Shown: in pieces, positions 17,934-53,910 of the stretch
Layout: the number at the start of each line of letters is the position of its first letter
How positions within the stretch are numbered: the first letter of the stretch is position 1
Assembly (NCBI RefSeq): GCF_000443995.1
Contig: NZ_AUMC01000008.1
Location: 186,001 to 250,000 of the forward strand
Source of the DNA: Bacteriovorax sp. BAL6_X
GTDB lineage: Bacteria; Bdellovibrionota; Bacteriovoracia; Bacteriovoracales; Bacteriovoracaceae
Direction: 5' to 3'
DNA length: 64,000 bases
The notes under the pieces: model-generated
Databases searched by the model: none
Seen by the model: the letters and a program-made list of their open reading frames with translations, nothing else
What the model was told of the DNA's origin: nothing
Translations under genes and position numbers: made by a program

Positions 17934-17951
17934 CAAAAGACAATATTTTAC

Positions 17952-17978
17952 TAAAGTATTGTCACTAAGTACCGATAA
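17952..17978 (+). promoter_or_regulatory. Sigma-28 (FliA)-like promoter
   Basis: TAAAGTAT (17952-17959), 11 bases, ACCGATAA (17971-17978): 7/8 and 7/8 to the E. coli FliA consensus. It ends seven bases before the ATG of a 40-codon ORF. Confidence 0.6.
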
Positions 17979-17985
17979 TCACATT

Positions 17986-35009: not shown

Positions 35010-35885
35010 TTATAAAGTCGAATCGTTCCATGAATCAATTAAATTTGCGATTTTATTAAATTGTTCATGAAGCGGTCGATACTCCTTGGAATTATAGGCG
35101 TAGATCGACTTTTTTGCGGCCTGAGACTTCACAATCTGGGCCTTATTAAAGAATGGAGCAATAAAGCGGTCATCTCCAGTTACTTTACGAATAAGTTCCT
35201 TAATTTCATCAAGATCACTCTCCTCTTGCTTACGTCTAGTGTCCATTAAATTTGGAATATGCGTGATGATCTCAGGAAGCTTAACAATTTCCATATCCTC
35301 AATATCTGAGAGCATTCCATAGAAGTGCTCTAGGCCCTTCATTGAAAAGTCATCTGGCCTAAAGGGAACAATGACTCCATCACTCACACAAATACTATTA
35401 ACAACTAAAAGCCCAAGCGTTGGAGGGCAATCAATAAGAATATAGTCATAGCGTTTTCTAATTCCAGCTTGCTCAATATATTTCTTTAAAATCATTTGCC
35501 TTGGAGAACTTATGGCGGCCACACATAATTCAAATCCAGATAACTCTTGGGCCGAAGGAAGAAGGTCGACTCCCACATCAGTTTTTAAAACAACTTTTTC
35601 AAAAATAGTTGATGAATGTAAATGCTTAAGCTCTTTTACAGAGTTTAGTAGCAAGTTGAAAATACTGATGCTATTACGGCTTTCATCGTGTCCAAAAAGG
35701 TAACTCATATTGGCCTGAGGATCCATATCAATAACTAGAACCTTATGACCTTTGTGGGCCAAGGCATGTGCCGTATTAAAACACATCGTTGTTTTACCAA
35801 CTCCACCTTTTTGATTAAGAAAAGAAATGATTTTTCCCTTCCCTAAGTCTTGTGATTTTCCAGCACGATTGCGACCAAAGAACAT
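35010..35885 (-). CDS. parA: ParA-family ATPase
   Basis: 291 residues from the ATG at 35885, which has GGGAG six bases upstream; the ATG at 35909 has no ribosome site. Deviant Walker A NQKGGVGKTT near residue 28, Walker A' DMDPQANMSYLF, and IDCPPTLGLL. It binds DNA nonspecifically as an ATP dimer and moves or places cargo. No parB and no parS-like palindrome is beside it, so this may be an orphan ParA that positions something other than the chromosome. An extended -10 promoter sits directly upstream. Confidence 0.9.
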   Translation of the reverse strand: MFFGRNRAGKSQDLGKGKIISFLNQKGGVGKTTMCFNTAHALAHKGHKVLVIDMDPQANMSYLFGHDESRNSISIFNLLLNSVKELKHLHSSTIFEKVVLKTDVGVDLLPSAQELSGFELCVAAISSPRQMILKKYIEQAGIRKRYDYILIDCPPTLGLLVVNSICVSDGVIVPFRPDDFSMKGLEHFYGMLSDIEDMEIVKLPEIITHIPNLMDTRRKQEESDLDEIKELIRKVTGDDRFIAPFFNKAQIVKSQAAKKSIYAYNSKEYRPLHEQFNKIANLIDSWNDSTL

Positions 35886-35936
35886 AACCTTCTCCCAAGA
35901 ATCATTCATTGACTTGATACTTGAAGATTATAGCAT

Positions 35937-35957: not shown

Positions 35958-38900
35958 TTAGTCATACTGATTTGGATCAAGTTCGATAACACAACGCAGA
36001 CCAATTCTACTGCTCGCCTCAGAATCTGGAAGAAACTCAAATGCATAGACACCGGCCCCAGAAAGACTTTCATAATCCCCACCACTAACCATATTTCCGT
36101 TTACTCCATCAGTGTTGTTAAAGATTCTAAAGATCTCATCATCATGAAGTTGAGAGTTAGTTATTCCAGCTGTTGATCCGATTCTTAGCGTATAATCATT
36201 AATCACACTTCCAGGCATAGCATCTTCTGTGGCCTTGGCCGCATTAGAAATTGGAATACCAAAAACATAGTTAAAGTATCTAGCACTATAATCTGATACA
36301 TTCTCAAATAAGTGACTATCAAGCTCAAGATCACAAATATTGTCCCCATCAGAGTCATTACAAGGCCCAATATAAGAATCCATTATGTAATCCCCTGTCC
36401 CACCATAGATATCGGCCTTAGTCGAAACGATTGAAGCAAATGAGTAGATATTAGAGTTGAAGCCATATACTGTATTTGAAATCTCAGCCACATTTCCTAC
36501 AGCATCTTGTACACCAAAAGCTGATATACAGTCTTGTGTAAATACAGAACCTGTATGAAGAGAGCGAATTCCTGAAGAGTTTGTTCCTGGGATAGTATGA
36601 ATATCTGAAGAACTTAAATTATCAATATCCATATATGATGATTCTAGACCACTTGCCCCTGATGCATTACATTTACTTGAAGAATTAAGTGCAAGTCCCC
36701 TTTCCACAACTTCAATATTTGCATCAGAAGTAGCTCTTACATCCCAAGCACTATAAGCGATCTGCTCATCACGATCTGGAAGTTTATAAGTAGTCGCAGC
36801 ACCATATCCGACAATAGTCGGAGATCCAGTAAGTGTAGTACATGCGTTAGCTGCATTTGCATTTGTAATATTTGTTAAAGGTGGTAAGAAAGATTGAAAT
36901 GCTACTGCAGAATCTAAAGTATGAGTTGCAAAGTTTTGCCATACCCCATTTTTTACATAGCAAGTACCTGTTGATCTTTCATAGAAAATAGACCCGTCTG
37001 GCCCATCATATGCACCTAAGTTCTGAGCAATACATTGGCCATCTGTCGTATCACAACTTGTCTTAGAGTACGGGCATCCCATTTCAAAACGAGGAACAAG
37101 TAAGTCCTTTCCAAAGTCATAAATTGAACCAATTGTACCAAGAGCTGAAGCAGTGTCACCAAAGCCTTTATATTCACAAACATAATTACTATCAATAAAT
37201 GAATCTGAATGCATCATCTCACAAGCTTTCTTATTAACCATCCAACGATGGACGAATGCAAAGTTTTCTTGTGGAGCAACTACTGTTAATTTTGCAACAT
37301 TATTATTTGTTGTAATCTCAAGTGATTCATTGTCACCAAGCTGATTCGTAAAATTTAAAACAGGTCTTACTTCATAGACATAAGTGTGATTTGGAACAGG
37401 TGCTAAACGTGAGTTCTCACCGTTATCAATATAAGTATTAGAAGAAGTAATTAGATCTCTATTTAAAGGATTACTATAGTTGAATGTATGTAGAGGCCCT
37501 GCTTTCTTACGATAAATATTATAACCTTGAATTGCACCAGACGTACCAACAGTGAAGTCTTCCCACTCAACACTTACACTTGAGGTCCCATGATATGGAA
37601 TCCAATTTGTCCCGTCAGAATAAAAACAATCTTCATCCGTAGTTGCACGGTAGCCTGTATTAAATAAGAATTTTCCGTCGTTATCGCTTGCAAGTAATGT
37701 CTCTGTTTGTGAGTTAAAGACAACGCTAACAGATGAAGCATCACTTGAATCATATGTAACATCTCCAATACAGCTTGCACTATTAAGATCATCACATGTC
37801 GTAGTTGTATCTTCTAGCAGGCCATTAGACGTATAATCGCGATTTACTTCTGAAATATTACAGGCAACAGATTTACTAATTAAAACCCAATCATTTGAAG
37901 TCGTTCCTGTTGAGTAGTAACACTGATTGGCCGCCGTACGATATATAGCACCAGCTGAGTCAGGTACGACATTACTAGTTGCGGGCGAAACCGTTCCGTA
38001 ACACTCTTTTCCACCATCGCACTTTGTTAGTGAATGAGAACATGTAAAGCTAGATTCAACTCGAATACCAAAGTGATCAACTTTAGTTCCTAGAGCTTTA
38101 ACATCGGCCCAACCGTGATGAGCAACCGTTTGAGGCTCAACTCTAACTTTAAACGAAACAGATGTTCTTGGTGAACCTGTACCATTATCGACAAGATCAA
38201 ATGAAATTGTCGTTTCCCCATATTGTGACGCCGTTGGGATCATTTTAATTCTTAATACTTCATTAATTGAAATTCCATTATCAATTACTCCACTGGCCAT
38301 AGCGCCTGTTACTACTGCAAGATCCCCTGCTTCACTATATTCACCATCAAGGTCAGTATCCTTTAAGAATTGAATATTCATTGGTTGTATAAGTACATTA
38401 TTAGTTGAAACAATATTTTCAATCGTTACCGTTTGAGAAGCTTCATTAATGCTACCACCTTCACTAATAATAACATTATCAATAATAATATCTTCTTTTT
38501 CACCTACAATAACATCACTCATAAAGCTCGCATTTTGAACCCCATTATTTGAAGCAACTGCCCAGTCATCTGTGTCAACTGATTCATAACAAAGCCCATT
38601 AGTACGATCAAAGTAAACAACAGGATTATCACTTACGTGAGAAGTAGGATTGAAGCTAGGTGCCCCATGACCAATACAATTATTTACACCACATTCAGTA
38701 CGACCTGCGCGGCGATCATAAACAGAGTAATTACAAATTACAGGAGCATCAGAAGTTTCTTGAACAATAACATCAAGACTTTGTACAACTGACTCCGCAC
38801 TACTTGAATCCCTAACAACAAATTGGAAGTCATCAGGTGTTCCTATTGTATTAGCACTATTACCGTTTAATGTTTCATATAAACATGTGATAGAACCACC

Positions 38901-40577
38901 TGAAGAAATCGCACAATCTTTAATTGTTCCCTCAGTGCCAGCAAGAGAGCCTTGTCCTGCCATCGTGTTGATACGGTTTCCACTTCCATCAATAAAGTAA
39001 ACCGTAAGAGATGACATTGTATTATCGACATCAGAAACACTTCCAAGAGTAATTGTTTCACTTACACTATTCCAGTCTGAAGACTCATTCATAGTGTGAG
39101 TAAATGGGCCACCTGCCACAACAGGTGGATCATTCTTAGCGTTGATGACCACATTGATATAACCAGTTGTATGAAAGTCGGCCATACTCGTTAAAGGTAG
39201 CGGTGAATCTGAAATTTGATACTCAACAGTAAAGACACCATTTGCATCTCCATCAAAAAAGAGATTACAAAAAGTAGCATCATCCACACTATTAGCGTGG
39301 AATGTATCACCAGGAGCTCCTGTACAAGAGCCTTGAATATCTGGATAGCTTGTTAAGTTTTTAAATTTATAACGTAGATCAGAACTTGGAAATCCCATGT
39401 AAGAATCATCTGATGCTGTTGGAAAATAAAGCCCTACTGCAGTTTGGGCCCCAGGCGTCCCTGTACTATCTTCGTCTACAGTTACTGTAATAATATTTGC
39501 AGCAACTGGCTCATCATCAACTTCAGTCACACGAACTGAAGCAACTCCAGTATTTGAATACTGGCCATTTGCATAAATTTGGTACTCAACCATATCTTCT
39601 ATCGCCGCATTAAAGTAATCTGTACTAGTTGTAAACGCTAACGTACACTTACCTAGTGAGCAATTACATGAGATATCTGAGTTTTGTACACTTGCATGTA
39701 CCGAGCTAGCAACACAATAAGTTGCAAAGTCACCATCATAATCAAAGTAGCCAGAGACAGGGACTTCATTGACTTCACTATCGAATTCAAAAGTAATTAG
39801 AGAATCTTCACTTACAGTTGTGCTTCTTGTCGCCGCAACACTTGGAGCTTGATCAATATTTGTCACATCAACATATAATCTTGAAACAGCGCTATCACCA
39901 TCATCATCACTAATATAAAAATCAATATGTGAAGATCCATTAAAATGACGAGAAGGTTCAATATTCATCGAACAAGTACCGCTAATACATTCGCAAGTTG
40001 CACCTAACATTTTAATCCCAGGTGTCGGACTCTCCGTCGTATTCGGACCTGTAATCGTAGCAACGATGATTGGATTAATTGTTGCACTAGAGTTTATTGC
40101 ATTAATAATTTGCAACGAAGTTGAAAAGCCTGCATCAATTTGAACAGTAATTGTATTTGTTGTTATTGAGACTACTTCGGCCCCAGCAGAAACTGTTGGG
40201 TTATCTACTAACTCTAGATAAAGCTCTGAGAAGTTCATTGCATTTTGCCAAGTGTTTACCTTTTCAAACGTCATTGAGCCAATCGTTATTGTTTGGTTTA
40301 GACCTGTTGAGCTATCAACAATTGTGCATGAAGTAGGTATTCCTCCATTTTGATCTGTAAAAGAAATTGGAAAACTTGTCATGGCATCATCTTCAAGCAT
40401 AGAAACTGAAGTTGTTGTAATAACCGGTGCCTTTGGAGAAACATCAAGAATACAGCTTCTAGTGATTTCATCAAAGTAGTGCCCATCATCACAGCTTGCC
40501 TGCTTTAAAGAATTCATCTGCGGTGTACAGCCGATAAAAGCACTTAAAAATATTGAAATTAATAGTATACGATTCAT
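35958..40577 (-). CDS. Giant surface lipoprotein: Ig/cadherin-like repeats, Cys-rich modules, FGE/lectin-fold C-terminus
   Basis: 1539 residues from the ATG at 40577 (GGAAAGGT upstream; the frame to 40598 lacks one). Lipoprotein signal with lipobox SAFIGC. From about residue 45 to 640 there are Ig/cadherin-like repeats, several opening with a V(S/D)EDS motif. Four cysteine-rich modules lie at about 615, 845, 905 and 1165, sharing the pattern C...C...(I/V)Y/F...CY...W. A fibronectin-III-like segment is near 1000-1080. The last 310 residues resemble the formylglycine-generating-enzyme/C-type-lectin fold (KLPDRDEQIAYSAW, VGNVAEI, RIGLRCV) but look non-catalytic. Probably a surface adhesin. A FliA-like promoter precedes it. 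Confidence 0.75.
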   Translation of the reverse strand: MNRILLISIFLSAFIGCTPQMNSLKQASCDDGHYFDEITRSCILDVSPKAPVITTTSVSMLEDDAMTSFPISFTDQNGGIPTSCTIVDSSTGLNQTITIGSMTFEKVNTWQNAMNFSELYLELVDNPTVSAGAEVVSITTNTITVQIDAGFSTSLQIINAINSSATINPIIVATITGPNTTESPTPGIKMLGATCECISGTCSMNIEPSRHFNGSSHIDFYISDDDGDSAVSRLYVDVTNIDQAPSVAATRSTTVSEDSLITFEFDSEVNEVPVSGYFDYDGDFATYCVASSVHASVQNSDISCNCSLGKCTLAFTTSTDYFNAAIEDMVEYQIYANGQYSNTGVASVRVTEVDDEPVAANIITVTVDEDSTGTPGAQTAVGLYFPTASDDSYMGFPSSDLRYKFKNLTSYPDIQGSCTGAPGDTFHANSVDDATFCNLFFDGDANGVFTVEYQISDSPLPLTSMADFHTTGYINVVINAKNDPPVVAGGPFTHTMNESSDWNSVSETITLGSVSDVDNTMSSLTVYFIDGSGNRINTMAGQGSLAGTEGTIKDCAISSGGSITCLYETLNGNSANTIGTPDDFQFVVRDSSSAESVVQSLDVIVQETSDAPVICNYSVYDRRAGRTECGVNNCIGHGAPSFNPTSHVSDNPVVYFDRTNGLCYESVDTDDWAVASNNGVQNASFMSDVIVGEKEDIIIDNVIISEGGSINEASQTVTIENIVSTNNVLIQPMNIQFLKDTDLDGEYSEAGDLAVVTGAMASGVIDNGISINEVLRIKMIPTASQYGETTISFDLVDNGTGSPRTSVSFKVRVEPQTVAHHGWADVKALGTKVDHFGIRVESSFTCSHSLTKCDGGKECYGTVSPATSNVVPDSAGAIYRTAANQCYYSTGTTSNDWVLISKSVACNISEVNRDYTSNGLLEDTTTTCDDLNSASCIGDVTYDSSDASSVSVVFNSQTETLLASDNDGKFLFNTGYRATTDEDCFYSDGTNWIPYHGTSSVSVEWEDFTVGTSGAIQGYNIYRKKAGPLHTFNYSNPLNRDLITSSNTYIDNGENSRLAPVPNHTYVYEVRPVLNFTNQLGDNESLEITTNNNVAKLTVVAPQENFAFVHRWMVNKKACEMMHSDSFIDSNYVCEYKGFGDTASALGTIGSIYDFGKDLLVPRFEMGCPYSKTSCDTTDGQCIAQNLGAYDGPDGSIFYERSTGTCYVKNGVWQNFATHTLDSAVAFQSFLPPLTNITNANAANACTTLTGSPTIVGYGAATTYKLPDRDEQIAYSAWDVRATSDANIEVVERGLALNSSSKCNASGASGLESSYMDIDNLSSSDIHTIPGTNSSGIRSLHTGSVFTQDCISAFGVQDAVGNVAEISNTVYGFNSNIYSFASIVSTKADIYGGTGDYIMDSYIGPCNDSDGDNICDLELDSHLFENVSDYSARYFNYVFGIPISNAAKATEDAMPGSVINDYTLRIGSTAGITNSQLHDDEIFRIFNNTDGVNGNMVSGGDYESLSGAGVYAFEFLPDSEASSRIGLRCVIELDPNQYD

Positions 40578-40602
40578 TACCTTTCCCAAGTATCCCAATA
40601 AC

Positions 40603-40629
40603 TTATCGCCAAAATATTCCTTAACTTTA
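40603..40629 (-). promoter_or_regulatory. Sigma-28 (FliA)-like promoter of the giant lipoprotein gene
   Basis: Minus strand TAAAGTTA (40622-40629), exactly 11 bases, GGCGATAA (40603-40610): 7/8 and 7/8 to the E. coli FliA consensus. It lies 26 bases upstream of the start codon, in the right place. Confidence 0.75.
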
Positions 40630-40767: not shown

Positions 40768-43632
40768 CTACTGACAGAACTTAAAACTTTGATTTAGTGA
40801 GCAAAGAGCTTCTCTCATTTCTTCATTCTCTTCTTTAAGCTTACTATTCTCTTCTTTTAGAGAAGCTATCTCACGTGTATTTTGAGCTACCTGAGATTCA
40901 ACCCCCTCACTCATAAGTTTGAACATCGCCAAATTGCCATCGAGTTCTTTTACCGCTTCAATAAGTGGTGATACAAGTACAGCATAATCAACAGATAACC
41001 AACCATCAGCATTTTCAATAACGGCCGTTGGAAATTGTGCCTGCACATCTTGAGCAATCACACCAATCGAGTGCATCCCAGGAGATAGAGACTTCTCATT
41101 CCAGTTAAACTCAACACCTTTAAGGGCCTTTATTTTATCAAGGGCATGATCGATTTCTGTCACATTGTCTTTGAGTCTTTCATCTGAAGTACAATTCGTT
41201 GCACCAGCTCCACCTCCAAGAGTACAGTCTGTTGATCCTTGAACTCTTAGATTCCCTACGACATGAAGTTGCTCAGAAGGAGTTGTTGTACCGACACCTA
41301 CACGCCCAGCGGCAGTTACAGTCATGCGGTCTGTATTTGCGGTAGATATTGTCACAGGTAGGTTTGAGCCGACTGCTCCCGCCGTATTTAAATTCCCAAG
41401 CTTGATACCGGCCCCATTATCAACCAATACTTCAAAGTTATTTAACGTCCCACCTTTAAACACAACATTATCAATTCCACCTTGAGATATAATTTTCTGT
41501 GCAGAAGTCACTTGTCCAAAAAATGCAGAGCTTGTAGTTGCATCCCCTGCAATGTTATTAACAGAGATATTACCAAAATCAACATCACCTGTTACAGTAA
41601 TGTCACTATCAAAAGTAGCATTCCCCGTAACTTGTAGAGTTCCATCTACAACGGCCGCACCAGTTGTATTGAATGCGCCAGTATTTGTAAGTCCGCCTGT
41701 TGAAGTAATCCCATTGCCTTGAATTGTCCCAGTCGCCGTCAGATTTGTAGTTGAAAGGTTTCCTGAGTGTGAAAGAGTCCCTGAAACAATTGTATTACTA
41801 AATTGTGAAATGCCTGTAACGTTTAGGTTACCGGCCAATTGAGTACTACCTCCAACAACCATTTGATAACCAGAGGTATCAGAAACAGCAGTACTTCCTA
41901 CAAGTAGCCTTCCATTATTAGTAAGTCTCATATTTTCTTGCTGTGTATTCGTTGTATTTGCAGTCGTATAAAAGTTCAGCTCTGTTCCAAGATTTGTTGC
42001 ACTAAAATTTTCAGTCGCAGTCGAACGAATACTAGCAGTATTTACTATTCCACTACCAGTATCTCCACCAAAGTTTAAGAGACCTAGAATATCATTTGCA
42101 GTCGTCATTGAAGGTGCAGTAATAAGACCTTGTGAACTTGCGAGATTGATTGACGACTGATTGCCACCATATGAATAAAATTGTCCACTTGCATCTCCAG
42201 AATCACTACGTACATCAATTTGAGCAGTAGCATTGAATGTACCGAGATTAGATGTGTGTCCAAAAGATAAATTTCCATTTGCATCGTATAGAGCAAAGTC
42301 AGAAGATTCTGATTGGAAGGCGATATCACCAGGGCCGGAGCTACCAGCTGTAATTGTTGTTGTTCCACTATTTGTCATATTAACAGCATTAATATTGGTT
42401 ATCCCCGATCCATCTCCAACAAAGTTGGCCGCTGTTACAGTTGAGGAAATATTTAAATTACCATTGACTCCCGAATTTCCATAAACATAGAAAAGATAGA
42501 GAGGATCTGGAGTACCACCAATTGATGTGCGCCCTGCTGAATCAATGAAAAACTCTGCAGAATTCCAAAAGCTAGAAGTTAAGCTATCACCATCTCCATC
42601 AACATCGATAAAGAAGTAATTCATTCCACCAATATTTGTGTTACTACCATAAACACCCATCGTAGCGTTGTGTTCTTGTCTTAAACCAAAAGATAGTGCT
42701 CTTGCCCAACTAGAGCCAAGCCCTGTACCAACATTTCCACCCACGTGTAAAAGAATACTTTCTTCCGCAGTTGTAGGCCCTGCAATATTTCCACTCACAG
42801 TTAACTTAGATGGCCCTTCATATGGATCATCAGAGATTGTTACCTTTCCACCTGAACCACTACGTCTAATATGTGAACCACTTATATCCCAAGGTCCAGC
42901 GTAACTCCCGTTACTTAATTGAAGGTCCCACTTATTCGTTGATTCATTAAAACGAATAATATCACCCGCTGTGAAAGTTTCAATATTACCATCACCATTT
43001 AAATCACCAGCAACTGGAGCAGCATCGTTAACAACATAGAAGTCCCCATTATTGACTCCGGCAACTGAAGGAGCTGTGACTCCTCCTGTATCAAGAATGA
43101 GACGTCCTAAATAGTTAGACCCACCTAGATAGTCAACAGCAACCCATGAAGCTCCGTTATACTGCAAAACTTGGCCAGCACTTGATGCCCCCAGAGAGCT
43201 TAACTTTGAATTCGTTATTGCGCCGTCTTGAATTTTACTTGTTGAGATTGAACTATTTTGAACATCAAAACTAACAGAAGTTACAGTTTGTCCGAATGCA
43301 TCTGTTACAATAAGGTCATAGATAAAGCCACCAACGATTTTTAAACCATTAGGAACCCCTAACCTAACCATATTTGCTGACTTTGATAAGATATTTAAAT
43401 TGATAACCTGGGGCCCATTCTTTGTTTTGACTGCACTAATCGTTGATAGATTTGTCCCATTGAGAATCAATTGGTTTGAAGAAACTTCAATAAGTGTAAT
43501 CTGATGCCTCTTCGTAAGATCAGAAGTATCTGACGAGTTAGCATTATCACGGCCTGTATTACTAACAGGTTTACACGCGATAAAAAGTACAACTAAGAGA
43601 ATGTAAAAAGTATCTTTAAGTTTCATATCCAT
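40768..43632 (-). CDS. Tail-fibre-like lipoprotein with C-terminal intramolecular chaperone (peptidase S74) domain
   Basis: 954 residues. Lipoprotein signal with lipobox LFIAC. N-terminal IPT/TIG-like domain (about 45-125), then KIQDGAITNSKLSS and QVLQYNGASWV, sequences usual before fibre shafts. The centre is glycine-, serine- and threonine-rich low-complexity repeat (NLNVTGI..., GTLQVTGNATF...) as in trimeric fibres. The C-terminal 130 residues start with TSDERLKDNV and carry GVIAQDVQAQFP, the endosialidase-type S74 domain that trimerises the fibre and then cuts itself off, followed by a coiled coil. This architecture is normal for phage fibres but here is on a lipoprotein. Start: AGGGAT before ATG 43632; ATG 43626 is also possible. 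Confidence 0.8.
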   Translation of the reverse strand: MDMKLKDTFYILLVVLFIACKPVSNTGRDNANSSDTSDLTKRHQITLIEVSSNQLILNGTNLSTISAVKTKNGPQVINLNILSKSANMVRLGVPNGLKIVGGFIYDLIVTDAFGQTVTSVSFDVQNSSISTSKIQDGAITNSKLSSLGASSAGQVLQYNGASWVAVDYLGGSNYLGRLILDTGGVTAPSVAGVNNGDFYVVNDAAPVAGDLNGDGNIETFTAGDIIRFNESTNKWDLQLSNGSYAGPWDISGSHIRRSGSGGKVTISDDPYEGPSKLTVSGNIAGPTTAEESILLHVGGNVGTGLGSSWARALSFGLRQEHNATMGVYGSNTNIGGMNYFFIDVDGDGDSLTSSFWNSAEFFIDSAGRTSIGGTPDPLYLFYVYGNSGVNGNLNISSTVTAANFVGDGSGITNINAVNMTNSGTTTITAGSSGPGDIAFQSESSDFALYDANGNLSFGHTSNLGTFNATAQIDVRSDSGDASGQFYSYGGNQSSINLASSQGLITAPSMTTANDILGLLNFGGDTGSGIVNTASIRSTATENFSATNLGTELNFYTTANTTNTQQENMRLTNNGRLLVGSTAVSDTSGYQMVVGGSTQLAGNLNVTGISQFSNTIVSGTLSHSGNLSTTNLTATGTIQGNGITSTGGLTNTGAFNTTGAAVVDGTLQVTGNATFDSDITVTGDVDFGNISVNNIAGDATTSSAFFGQVTSAQKIISQGGIDNVVFKGGTLNNFEVLVDNGAGIKLGNLNTAGAVGSNLPVTISTANTDRMTVTAAGRVGVGTTTPSEQLHVVGNLRVQGSTDCTLGGGAGATNCTSDERLKDNVTEIDHALDKIKALKGVEFNWNEKSLSPGMHSIGVIAQDVQAQFPTAVIENADGWLSVDYAVLVSPLIEAVKELDGNLAMFKLMSEGVESQVAQNTREIASLKEENSKLKEENEEMREALCSLNQSFKFCQ

Positions 43633-48480: not shown

Positions 48481-51400
48481 ATGAAAATCAAAAATGAAAA
48501 CAAATTTGGAATGCTTAGAGGCCTTACACATGCATTCGCATTGGCCGCGATTCTTTCAAGTTGTGCAAAGACTCTTCCGGACAAAGAGCCTGATTTTGCT
48601 CAAGAAAGCTATCGTACAAAGAATTCTGTAACTTCAGCTAAGCTTGTAGTTGAAGCAATTGCTGTTGCAACTCAAGAAGAACTTTCTAAAAATAGAATTT
48701 CGACAGACTTAATTGACACAAGTGTTGGTAGTGAAGCAAAGACTCTTTACTCAACTCAAATCGTTAATTCTAATGATAAAACTTATAATGTTCTTGTAAA
48801 AGATCTTCTAGTTTTTGCAGAGAAAGAAGGTCAGAAATTTGAAATCACATTTGATCTAACGACAAACTACCTAGTAGCATACATAGCTCCAGCAGACACT
48901 AGTGCAAAAGCTTTTAGTGCTTCAAATAAGATTATTCGCGATGTTCTTCCAGTTAAAGCTTCTAAGCTTGACCGCATTCCACTATTTCAATATGGCGTTG
49001 ACTTCTACCAAAGAGAAAATGTTAAAAACGACCTTGATGAAAAAACAAGACATATCAGATATATTGAAAAAGATCGTTCTGAATCAACTCACTACAAAGT
49101 TGATTACCTAATCGAAAACAGAACTTACACAGGTGTTTTCGGAATGGATCAAAAAGAGATCGCGACTATCTACCGTCGTGATAAAGTTGAAAGTAACCTA
49201 TTCACAGTAGGCCAACTTGAAGATCGTATCCTTAATAATGAAAATGCTTTCACTACTTCAAAGCATGATGGTCACGTATTTGATAACAAAGACCTAATAA
49301 AGGTTATTCTTGATGACAATGAAAGTAAGGCATACTTTGCACGTGTTATTAAGAAAGAAAATCTAACTGACAATGAAGAACAACTAGTTCGTGCAGAAAG
49401 ATTCAACCTACTATTTTCAAGATGTGACGCGGATACTGCACAAAGAGCAAAGATCGCTCTTGATAACTGTTTCCTACGCTCAGAGATCTCTGAAAAAATT
49501 AAGTACGTAAAATTCAAGTACGATATCGATGATAATGATGAAGTTTTAGCTGAAACAAAAATCTCTTCAAGCACTGTTGCTGAAGATGCAAAATTCATTC
49601 AACTAGAAAAAGATTCTCAACCTGAAGAGATTTACCCAACAGAAATTAGAAATGAGCTATCAACTGCTTGGTTAAAGCTTGAAAAATTTAAGAATCAAGA
49701 ATTTACTTTTAGAAGAGTTTTAGAAGACTCTCCAAATATTTTCAATTATAGCTTTGCAGGTTCTAAAGCAACTTTCCACGTGGAAATCGTTAAGTTCCAC
49801 TTTGAGCCAGGACGTGTTCTTGTTAAAAGGTCAAAACCGCTTCTTGATAAAACAGGATCAACAAATCTTGATACAGAGCCTTTACTAGCATTTGAAGCTG
49901 AATACTTCCGTGAAAGTAAGAATGACAAAGGTGGTATCGTCTACGTTCCAGCAAGTCACAATGATGAAAGAGCTATTGCTGTTGTAAACCTTGGTAACGA
50001 CCAAATTGGTGATGTTCTTACATCACTAGACCCTTACCTAATGAGTGTTTGTGGAGGCGGAAAGGCCCACGGACTGACAGAGGTAAGAGATATCGTACAG
50101 GTTGTTGATGGAAAAGATGATTTCCTTAACTTCTCTACTCAATCAACTTATAAAAAAGGTAACCTATTTAATTGTGCTGACTTTGGTGGAGATTACTGGG
50201 GACAACAGAATGAAACGATGACTTTCAAAGAAAGAACAACTTTCATGAAGTACAATCAAGAGTTCGAAGAGCCAGAGCAAAATCTTTCTTACGAAGTACA
50301 AAAGAAGTTTAACTTTGGTCTATTCACAGGTTCTAAGCTAGTTCCAAAAGGATACACTGAGCAAACTCGTGACTTTGATACAACTGTAGATCTACCAATG
50401 GTATTTGATATCAGAAATGGTAAGAATATCGAGTACGTTCTAACAGGGATTCCATCAAATAAATACGACAAAGATGGAAAACTAGTTAGAAAGTTAACTC
50501 AAACAGAACTTGATCTAAGAAATAAAATTATCGTTTCTTCTCAAAAAGTTATTGATGATATCAACCTAGGTTTCAAGCGTGCATTCAAAGGTACTCAATA
50601 CGAAGGGCGTGGTGATGTTATCACTCTTAAGATTGAAAAAGATGATTCAATTCCAGCTGGAACAAAGAACCTTTCTCTAACTCACAATCTTGATGGTGAG
50701 TCACGTTCAGTAAATATCGAAGTTGTGGAAAAAACTCACTTAGGAGATCTACAACGTAACCATATCTACTGGGTAGAAAAAGCTACTTCAAGTTCAATTA
50801 TTGGTCTTGGAGGTCCATCGTTTAACCCAAGAAACGGTGTTGTTGAATCAGCTTCTGTTTACCTATACGGTGGTAACATGAAGTCTTCAATTAACTGGAT
50901 GGTTGATAAAGCGATCGCAGAGAAGAACTTTGTTAAGAATATTACTCCAACTAAAGAGCTTCAAAAACTTGCAGATGAGCTTAACAAGAAAGCAATTGAA
51001 GATGCTCTAGCAGAGCACAAGGCAAAGACTCAAGCAGCAGGACAAGCGACTCAAGTTGCTAACACAGATGAAGTAGAAGTTGAAATTGAAGGTGAAACAG
51101 TAACTCAAAGCTCGAAGAAAGCTGAGATGAAATCTCACCGTCACGGTGTTGCTCACACTAACTTAAAGAGCAATCTACTTAATACAATTAAGCGTCCAAA
51201 TATGGCCTCACAGATGGGGAAAATCAAAGATGCTCACCGTCTAATGAAGAATGATTTTAGAGCTAGCTCATTTGATAAAGATGAAGTTCTTTCTAACTTC
51301 ACAAGAGCTAACCAAAAAGAGGCAAAAGCAGTACATGCTGCTTGGCAAGCAATTGCTAATAAGGACGACGTTGCACTACAAGCAGCAATTCACGGTGACA

Positions 51401-53910
51401 ACTCAATTGAGGCCCTTCAAGCGAAGATCAAGCATTCAATGGAGTACGATACTAAGGGTAATAAAAACCCTATTTGTAACCACGAAACAGCTGAGTTTGC
51501 ACTTAGTAACCTTGCTAAGAACTACGATGTTCTTGAAATGGCAAAAACTGACGAAGGAAAGAATGACATTCTAATTGATATCTGGATGCCAACTCTTGCA
51601 CACGAGATCGGACACAACCTTGGTCTACGTCACAACTTCGTTGGTTCATTTGATAAGAAGAACTGGGTATTCCCAGGAGAGAAAGAAGCAAAGAGAACTT
51701 CATCTTCAGTTATGGACTACACAATTGATGACCACGCTACTTACGATGGTCTAGCTCCATACGATGTATACGCACTACGTGCAGCTTATACAGGAATGGT
51801 AGAACTTGAAGGATATACTAACTCGAAAAAGACATCAATTGAGATCAATGGTGTTGACGTTAAGGTATCTTCTGTTGAATCTGAATTTGAACCAGGTCTA
51901 TACTACCACCTAGTAAGAATTAAAGATGTCATTGATGCACTTGTTGGTGAAAATGGTAACCCTGCAAATATCTCTAAGCATAGACTTATGGCAGAAGCAG
52001 GCCTTAAGAGAATCAGATTCTGTTCAGATGAGGACGCAGGAAACTCTCCTCAGTGTAACAGACACGACTTTGGTTCATCTTTTGAAGAAATCGTTGATTA
52101 CCAAATTGCAGACTACCGTCAGATGTACGAGTATATCTACTTCCCAGGAAAGCGTAAGCAGTTCTATGGTGGAGCAGCATTTGGTTGGCTAATGGATAAA
52201 TTCTATAAGTTAAGAATGATGAACGAAGAAGTATTCTATCACCTAATTTATACTCCTGAGTTGTACTCTCAAGCAGATCAAGCAACTCATGATGCAACAA
52301 CTAACGACCTAGTAAATGGTGTAATCAAGTCACTATTCTTCCTACAGTCAGTAGTTGCGACTCCAGATATCACTCCAGGAGCTGGGCTTGATACTGAAGC
52401 ACAAAGAAATAAGAGATTTGTTTCGACTCTAGTTCCAACTCAAACTGAGGTTACAGCTGATGATGGAACAGTTCTACAAGTAGCGACTCAAAAACCAATG
52501 GTTGTAGAAACAAAGTGGAATGAAGCAATCTCACTTGATAGTGATTCATATAGAGCGAAAAACCGTGGTGTTGAATATGATAAAGCAGCAGCTCTAATTG
52601 CACTTACAGAGTCTGAGTCGTACTCATACAAGTACCGTTCAAACTCTCTAAGAATTCCATACCAGTTACTAGAGCAGTACCTGTTTGGAATTGATATTAA
52701 GGATTCAATTGTACAATCAACAATTGGAGAAGTTCTTTCTGGTCAAGTTACTCCACTAGTATATGACCCAGCAATAGGACGTAATATCCCACTAACTAAT
52801 GGAGCCTTCAGCGTTGAAGTTGGTGAAGTTGAAACTAACTATGCTGCTATCGGTGGTCTAGTTTACGGTAATATTGATACATTTGAACAAACAGCTAACC
52901 CTGCACGTGCATTTTGGGTAAATCATATTTCTCAAAGAGATCTACTTACTGAGACTTTCGAGCACGAAGGGCAAACTTACCAAATCCCAGAGGATTATGT
53001 AGCTGAGAAAACTGATATCAGAAAAGCATATGTACCTTATGCACAAGACTCATATGTAGCTGGTAACGTTATCCAGAAAGCAAGTATGATGCAGTTAATT
53101 TCTCACGATGAGCGTTGGTCAACATTCTTTGAAGAATGGGAAAAGGCGCAAATTGAAGGGCTTCAACTTGCACAAACTCCAGCAGCACAAGATGCAACTG
53201 AAGATACAATGAAAGCTCAAAAGACCGAGCTTGAAATGGCAGCTGCTCTTGGAAATGCAGCAACAATTAAATCAGAGATGCAGAAATACTTCGCTCAAAT
53301 TAATGCTCTTCTTGCTTCACAAGATCAAAAAGAGATGATTGCAGGATTCCTTGCTCAAAGAGCACTTATTAAGCAAGCTGGTTCTTACTTTGTATCAGCT
53401 CAGTTTACAGTAATGATGAATGATATTGGCCTTGAAGGTGTAACACTAGACTACATCAACCAAGTTCTAAGTCAGGCAATCGTACCAATCGCTTTTGAAG
53501 CAGAAGCATGTCGTCTTGCAGACCAGTACTGTTCAACGGTTGATATGATTCAAATGGCGAAAACAGGAAATAAGGATAGATACTTAGATAATAAGATCAC
53601 TAACCTTCTGAATAACTTCTCAATGCCTTCAGTTAATGACCAAGGTCAAGTTGAGTTATTCGCACCAGTTATTACTAAGATTATCCAAGGTCTTAATAAT
53701 AACGAACAAATCAAGCTAGGAGATGTTTTCTTAAGAGATATTCAAGAAAACAGCTTCGCTCAGATTCAACAAATGGATCAGCTTGTTGGTGAAGCTATGA
53801 CGAAAATGAAAGTTACTAAAGACGTTGATAGCTTCTATGGAGATATGAAAAGAAACGTAAAACTTCTTGGATTATACTTCAGAATGATTAACCCGATGGA
53901 AGGAAAATAA
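48481..53910 (+). CDS. Giant zinc metalloprotease lipoprotein (Met-zincin, DUF4953/DUF5117-like)
   Basis: 1809 residues. Lipoprotein-type N-terminus with lipobox ILSSC at about residue 29. The zinc site is HEIGHNLGLRHNFVGS at about 1041, followed by SSVMDYTIDDH, the methionine turn; the HNF ending is typical of the Met-zincin family with DUF4953. Upstream are about 1000 residues of beta-rich sequence; downstream about 700, largely helical, with several cysteine pairs. The codons avoid GGCC, suggesting high expression. It is likely to be an exposed protease acting on host, prey or envelope proteins; substrate unknown. Its 5430 bases have no in-frame break. A terminator follows. Confidence 0.85.
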   Translation: MKIKNENKFGMLRGLTHAFALAAILSSCAKTLPDKEPDFAQESYRTKNSVTSAKLVVEAIAVATQEELSKNRISTDLIDTSVGSEAKTLYSTQIVNSNDKTYNVLVKDLLVFAEKEGQKFEITFDLTTNYLVAYIAPADTSAKAFSASNKIIRDVLPVKASKLDRIPLFQYGVDFYQRENVKNDLDEKTRHIRYIEKDRSESTHYKVDYLIENRTYTGVFGMDQKEIATIYRRDKVESNLFTVGQLEDRILNNENAFTTSKHDGHVFDNKDLIKVILDDNESKAYFARVIKKENLTDNEEQLVRAERFNLLFSRCDADTAQRAKIALDNCFLRSEISEKIKYVKFKYDIDDNDEVLAETKISSSTVAEDAKFIQLEKDSQPEEIYPTEIRNELSTAWLKLEKFKNQEFTFRRVLEDSPNIFNYSFAGSKATFHVEIVKFHFEPGRVLVKRSKPLLDKTGSTNLDTEPLLAFEAEYFRESKNDKGGIVYVPASHNDERAIAVVNLGNDQIGDVLTSLDPYLMSVCGGGKAHGLTEVRDIVQVVDGKDDFLNFSTQSTYKKGNLFNCADFGGDYWGQQNETMTFKERTTFMKYNQEFEEPEQNLSYEVQKKFNFGLFTGSKLVPKGYTEQTRDFDTTVDLPMVFDIRNGKNIEYVLTGIPSNKYDKDGKLVRKLTQTELDLRNKIIVSSQKVIDDINLGFKRAFKGTQYEGRGDVITLKIEKDDSIPAGTKNLSLTHNLDGESRSVNIEVVEKTHLGDLQRNHIYWVEKATSSSIIGLGGPSFNPRNGVVESASVYLYGGNMKSSINWMVDKAIAEKNFVKNITPTKELQKLADELNKKAIEDALAEHKAKTQAAGQATQVANTDEVEVEIEGETVTQSSKKAEMKSHRHGVAHTNLKSNLLNTIKRPNMASQMGKIKDAHRLMKNDFRASSFDKDEVLSNFTRANQKEAKAVHAAWQAIANKDDVALQAAIHGDNSIEALQAKIKHSMEYDTKGNKNPICNHETAEFALSNLAKNYDVLEMAKTDEGKNDILIDIWMPTLAHEIGHNLGLRHNFVGSFDKKNWVFPGEKEAKRTSSSVMDYTIDDHATYDGLAPYDVYALRAAYTGMVELEGYTNSKKTSIEINGVDVKVSSVESEFEPGLYYHLVRIKDVIDALVGENGNPANISKHRLMAEAGLKRIRFCSDEDAGNSPQCNRHDFGSSFEEIVDYQIADYRQMYEYIYFPGKRKQFYGGAAFGWLMDKFYKLRMMNEEVFYHLIYTPELYSQADQATHDATTNDLVNGVIKSLFFLQSVVATPDITPGAGLDTEAQRNKRFVSTLVPTQTEVTADDGTVLQVATQKPMVVETKWNEAISLDSDSYRAKNRGVEYDKAAALIALTESESYSYKYRSNSLRIPYQLLEQYLFGIDIKDSIVQSTIGEVLSGQVTPLVYDPAIGRNIPLTNGAFSVEVGEVETNYAAIGGLVYGNIDTFEQTANPARAFWVNHISQRDLLTETFEHEGQTYQIPEDYVAEKTDIRKAYVPYAQDSYVAGNVIQKASMMQLISHDERWSTFFEEWEKAQIEGLQLAQTPAAQDATEDTMKAQKTELEMAAALGNAATIKSEMQKYFAQINALLASQDQKEMIAGFLAQRALIKQAGSYFVSAQFTVMMNDIGLEGVTLDYINQVLSQAIVPIAFEAEACRLADQYCSTVDMIQMAKTGNKDRYLDNKITNLLNNFSMPSVNDQGQVELFAPVITKIIQGLNNNEQIKLGDVFLRDIQENSFAQIQQMDQLVGEAMTKMKVTKDVDSFYGDMKRNVKLLGLYFRMINPMEGK

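Follow-up and report, generated by a model that had tools for sequence, protein, structure and literature searches.

The locus studied here raises the question of whether a two-box element in front of a large lipoprotein gene of a predatory bacterium is a sigma-28 (FliA) promoter, and what such a promoter would say about the time and place at which the protein acts. The window, which is the whole 64-kb stretch of DNA that was analyzed, belongs to Bacteriovorax sp. BAL6_X (genome size 3,233,679 bases), a cultured marine predator with Vibrio as prey (PMC4511183). The name Bdellovibrio in the earlier note holds only in the broad sense of Bdellovibrio and like organisms, as the strain belongs to the Halobacteriovorax lineage and not to Bdellovibrio itself. 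The NCBI taxonomy places Halobacteriovorax within the Bacteriovoracia, Halobacteriovoraceae. The following features were assigned:

35010..35909, minus strand: ParA/MinD-like ATPase gene, 48 nt downstream of the lipoprotein gene (a gene of this kind follows at 15 of 27 orthologous loci)
35958..40577, minus strand: 1539-aa lipoprotein with lipobox signal peptide, Big/cadherin-like repeat stalk, Fn3-like domain and C-terminal C-type-lectin/FGE-fold domain (from the ORF, alignment, Pfam, model and fold search)
40578..40597, minus strand: predicted short leader with the G-rich ribosome site GGGAAAGG before the ATG (from sequence)
40602..40608, minus strand: −10 box CGATAAG, 16 nt after TAAAG (CGATAAG is present in 22 of 31 orthologue regions)
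40625..40629, minus strand: −35 box TAAAG of the sigma-28 type (exact match to the flagellin-trained family consensus)
40768..43632, minus strand: upstream 954-aa lipoprotein with C-terminal peptidase S74, a MAT-like fibre protein (weak site TTAAC-N16-CGATATG)

The motif TAAAGTTA-N11-GGCGATAA occurs a single time in the window, at 40603-40629 on the minus strand. Direct comparison with the E. coli-type consensus TAAAGTTT-N11-GCCGATAA revealed one mismatch in each box, as the earlier note had claimed, and the TAAAG and CGATAA boxes do lie at the proper sigma-28 distance. The full minus-strand element TAAAGTTAAGGAATATTTTGGCGATAAG extends from 40629 to 40602, one base beyond the box first described. 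The gene behind it and its length (1,539 codons) had been given correctly, whereas the distance from the last base of that box to the ATG at 40577 is 25 nt and not 26 nt. The transcription start is predicted about 6-8 nt past the −10 box. An in-frame TTG at 40598 was rejected as start codon, since a position only 4 nt after the −10 box is too close for translation to begin there if this promoter is used.

For the identification of sigma-28 sites, a two-box weight matrix was trained solely on sequences upstream of 34 flagellin genes, which came from 29 genera of the same family. This own-family matrix was chosen so that the argument does not rest on the E. coli consensus. Expectation maximization was seeded with TAAAG and CGATAA, with the flanks and the spacing (13-18) left free. 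The resulting motif was TtcTAAAGaa.T, 16 nt, CGAtAAGt, with a posterior above 0.6 in 28 of the 34 flagellin regions. The site of the lipoprotein gene, which was outside the training set, matches both cores of the clade motif TAAAG-N16-CGAtAAG without a mismatch. It scores 19.1 bits, which is inside the range of true flagellin promoters; the second-best site of the window reaches 13.1 bits. First-order Markov sequence yields approximately 2 sites of at least 18 bits per Mb on both strands, corresponding to about 0.13 per window at any position. The genome encodes only one clear FliA (C10:210497, 277 bits, above the family cut-off), together with FlgM and several flagellins, and the same two-box element is found before the flagellin genes of BAL6_X and its relatives.

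Next, the conservation of the element was analyzed. Of 97 sampled genomes, 46 encode relatives of the lipoprotein, and only one of these lies outside the family. A scan of named genomes with the lipoprotein as single query gave no match. In the other sampled families of the phylum no homologue was detected, except for a short C-terminal match in one genome. Regions of 330 nt around the frame start of 30 orthologues were scored with the flagellin matrix, and 118 neighbouring genes were treated alike. The median was 14.7 bits for the orthologues and 0.5 bits for the neighbouring genes (p=4e-13), where the 30 regions are mutually related and do not represent 30 independent events. A score of at least 14 bits was reached by 16 of the 30 orthologues compared to 4 of the 118 neighbours, one of which is really the orthologue of strain DB6_IX. 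At least 10 bits were found in 21 of the 30 orthologues, covering 16 genera. For CGATAAG, seen in 22 of 31 regions as listed above, the chance expectation is 0.026 per region. The strongest control for a conserved element is the distribution of box spacings: T[ATC]AAG and CGA[TA]AAG occur together with a gap of 16 nt in 14 loci and of 17 nt in 6 loci, and no other gap between 10 and 23 nt was seen more than once.

The cultured strain DB6_IX, of the same genus, carries TTAAG-N16-CGATAAG (19.0 bits) 24 nt upstream of the matched N-terminus. The spacer between the boxes is unconserved in the aligned sites, whose columns were picked by score, so that this display taken alone is biased. Among the low-scoring orthologues, L100 has no site and L085, L092 and L094 reach approximately 7 bits. 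In several orthologues the highest-scoring site falls within the open frame, close to or beyond a possible N-terminus. Two genomes (G032 and G036) have neither flagellins nor the lipoprotein, and this joint absence is a weak but consistent sign.

It would also be conceivable that the gene is read mainly from the promoter of the S74 fibre gene by operon read-through, leaving the FliA site as a minor internal promoter. Both genes are on the same strand with a gap of 190 nt, belong to a similar functional class, and no terminator-like site was found between them. Nevertheless, the site is kept in loci where the upstream gene differs and is on the opposite strand (L079, L082, L086, L091), and we consider read-through as the main source very unlikely. 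Recognition of the element by a different sigma factor or regulator is judged highly improbable. Two further sigma-70 family genes give weaker matches to the FliA model, and FliA binding is itself predicted, but the same element precedes the flagellins in a genome with one clear FliA and matches the FliA-type motif of Bdellovibrio. A chance match in an A+T-rich intergenic region has a close to negligible probability: Markov sequence does yield about two such sites per Mb, but the specific spacing and the recurrence of the site at this position in front of orthologues from many genera already contradict chance. In a search of the region, no sigma-70-type site was found just before the lipoprotein gene, and sites of this type were fewer than in shuffled sequence. 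The sigma-28 reading of the earlier note is thus borne out by the flagellin-type motif, the presence of the FliA and FlgM genes and the conservation before orthologues, and the site is very probably a genuine sigma-28 (FliA) promoter.

The ATPase gene is probably co-transcribed with the lipoprotein gene, although it could instead use a promoter of its own. Its product could serve in polar placement. A FliA promoter for the S74 gene of the window is unsupported, the site TTAAC-N16-CGATATG scoring just 1.5 bits; in some relatives, FliA-like sites do precede the gene that occupies this upstream position. Elsewhere in the window, a 1809-aa protein with a metzincin-type protease region (DUF4953/reprolysin-like) is encoded at 48481-53910 on the plus strand.

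The distribution of the motif was determined by positional statistics on an 824-kb genome sample and by pattern scans of the whole genome. Sites of at least 16 bits occur at 14.6 per Mb in the sample compared to 3.3 in Markov sequence (approximately 4.4-fold). Five of these 12 sites fall in upstream windows against an expected 0.8, and two are flagellin sites from the training set. The pattern TWAAG-N16-CGAWAAG has 17 exact copies in the whole genome, most of them shortly upstream of an ORF on the same strand. The exported or envelope proteins encoded behind exact copies include flagellin, the 1539-aa lipoprotein, an M23 peptidase with a lipobox-like N-terminus, a FecR-domain protein and further ones without a Pfam match. 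Such a genome-wide scan had been expected in the earlier note to list more surface genes, and further envelope genes were indeed found. With at most one mismatch, 184 copies were counted compared to 139 for the reversed-pattern control. Since this excess is modest, the weaker matches are mostly noise.

Several individual sites were also recorded. A FliA-like site in the window (17949-17981, plus strand, TAAAGTATTGTCACTAAGTACCGATAA, 12.2 bits) lies 7 nt upstream of an ORF of 40 codons that includes a hydrophobic segment and may represent a small protein or an RNA. At locus L230 (2419-8054), a FliA-type site of 16.5 bits precedes an apparently exported 1060-aa protein without a Pfam match, and the next gene encodes a 782-aa lipoprotein-like protein. 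At L231 (2346-7499), a site of 16.1 bits stands before a 486-aa protein and then an exported 1176-aa protein, whose N-terminus by eye resembles tail-fibre-like MAT proteins. The site at L205 (1501-3026, 20.4 bits) is located upstream of the gene for a sigma-54 activator and may connect the two sigma systems. L228 (4528-15000) holds a tandem array of large lipoprotein-like genes, of which the 1720-aa one is a distant relative of the window lipoprotein and has no FliA-type site.

The lipoprotein status proposed earlier agrees with the signal peptide and its lipobox, whose Cys17 is invariant in all 15 aligned orthologues (27-38% identical to the window copy). The window copy has the lipobox FIGC with F at position −3, and many orthologues are canonical. 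Bacterial Ig/cadherin-like repeats were detected by Pfam in 12 of the 15 orthologues, and the FGE-sulfatase domain (PF03781) in 8 of them, though without such a match in the window copy. A tandem-95 repeat (NCBIfam) was found below threshold. The predicted structure of the last 560 residues (pLDDT 79.8, pTM 0.84) comprises an Fn3-like domain with a C-type-lectin/FGE fold C-terminal to it. Its top fold match is TaqVP (Z 18.6, rmsd 4.6, 281 residues), with CarF, Mtd, PorK and FGE next (Z 12-14).

TaqVP and Mtd are C-type-lectin-fold variable proteins of diversity-generating retroelements (DGR), a role that the fold of the C-terminal 560 aa had suggested here as well. Unlike in those systems, neither an RVT_1 reverse transcriptase in the BAL6_X genome nor a repeat of at least 30 bases near the gene was found, and this candidate role was dropped for want of RVT_1 and a template repeat. 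The absence of RVT_1 from the genome argues that the lipoprotein is not a current retroelement target. The likeness to FGE/SUMF1 (PF03781) covers the fold and the family match in the 8 orthologues. No cysteine is present in the window protein or in the consensus between the GGS and GFRC motifs, where we take the FGE active-site pair to be located. As this pair is missing from the C-terminal stretch, enzyme activity is unlikely, and the modelled domain suggests binding as likelier than catalysis. PorK/GldK of the type IX secretion system are likewise lipoproteins with an FGE-like domain, but their solved chains have about 440-490 residues and no long repeat stalk.

In the proposed mechanism, completion of the flagellar hook would lead to export of FlgM, which would free FliA and switch on flagellin and the lipoprotein gene together. 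The promoter would thereby drive the lipoprotein gene, and probably also the ParA-like ATPase gene, within the flagellar/attack-phase regulon. The protein would be exported and lipid-anchored in the envelope, with the C-type-lectin-like domain at the tip of an Ig/cadherin-like stalk, where it would most likely bind a ligand, plausibly on prey, in the free-swimming phase. Transcription from the site, its timing, co-transcription, surface exposure and prey binding are what we infer from the combined data. Because a flagellar start signal is kept before its gene across much of the family, the lipoprotein is probably produced by the swimming BAL6_X cell, and it is a good candidate for contact with prey.

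From the fold and the genomic context, we give a prey-contact role about even chances. A serious competing possibility, to which we give somewhat less than even chances, keeps the FliA-dependent promoter but assigns the protein a structural or sensory function in the envelope of the motile cell, for instance in the flagellar sheath or in an envelope ring like that of PorK/GldK, instead of prey contact. In its favour, PorK/GldK, which are lipoproteins of the FGE-like type, also rank among the top fold matches (Z 13.4), and the ParA-like partner could mean polar placement; yet the variable protein TaqVP is the best match, Mtd also scores high, and the gene next door encodes an S74 fibre lipoprotein, of a class that attack-phase Bdellovibrio displays on its surface (PMC10769870).

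In Bdellovibrio, attack-phase genes are known to be under FliA control. In B. bacteriovorus, TTAAG-N16-CCGATA was described at 92 of 140 mapped attack-phase promoters, cell-surface genes included (PMC3627812). An E. coli reporter showed that the TAD pilus promoter depends on FliA, and fliA could not be deleted in B. bacteriovorus (PMC5430801). Promoter sequences suggested FliA dependence in other predators, with BAL6_X among the compared genomes (PMC5430801). The sites described here have essentially the same boxes and spacing and likewise precede non-flagellar envelope genes in addition to flagellins. They differ in the family (Bacteriovoracaceae/Halobacteriovoraceae), in the motif TAAAG-N16-CGATAAG and in starts that are predicted rather than mapped. 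The upstream S74 lipoprotein resembles in plan the MAT fibres displayed on attack-phase Bdellovibrio cells (PMC10769870).

The new observation is a FliA-type site conserved ahead of the gene for one particular lipoprotein that carries a lectin-like tip. A rather doubtful extension is that the C-type-lectin-tipped stalk lipoprotein, the S74 or another fibre lipoprotein and the ParA-like positioning ATPase form a FliA-controlled envelope module kept across the family, which would be the prey-recognition apparatus of the Bacteriovoracaceae, positioned at the attack pole and coupled to swimming. For the study of prey recognition by predatory bacteria, especially outside Bdellovibrio, a promoter shared with flagellin and retained before one large envelope protein in much of a predator family provides a specific candidate in a culturable strain. 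It also widens the likely role of FliA as an attack-phase regulator of envelope genes beyond Bdellovibrio, to include the Bacteriovorax/Halobacteriovorax lineage.
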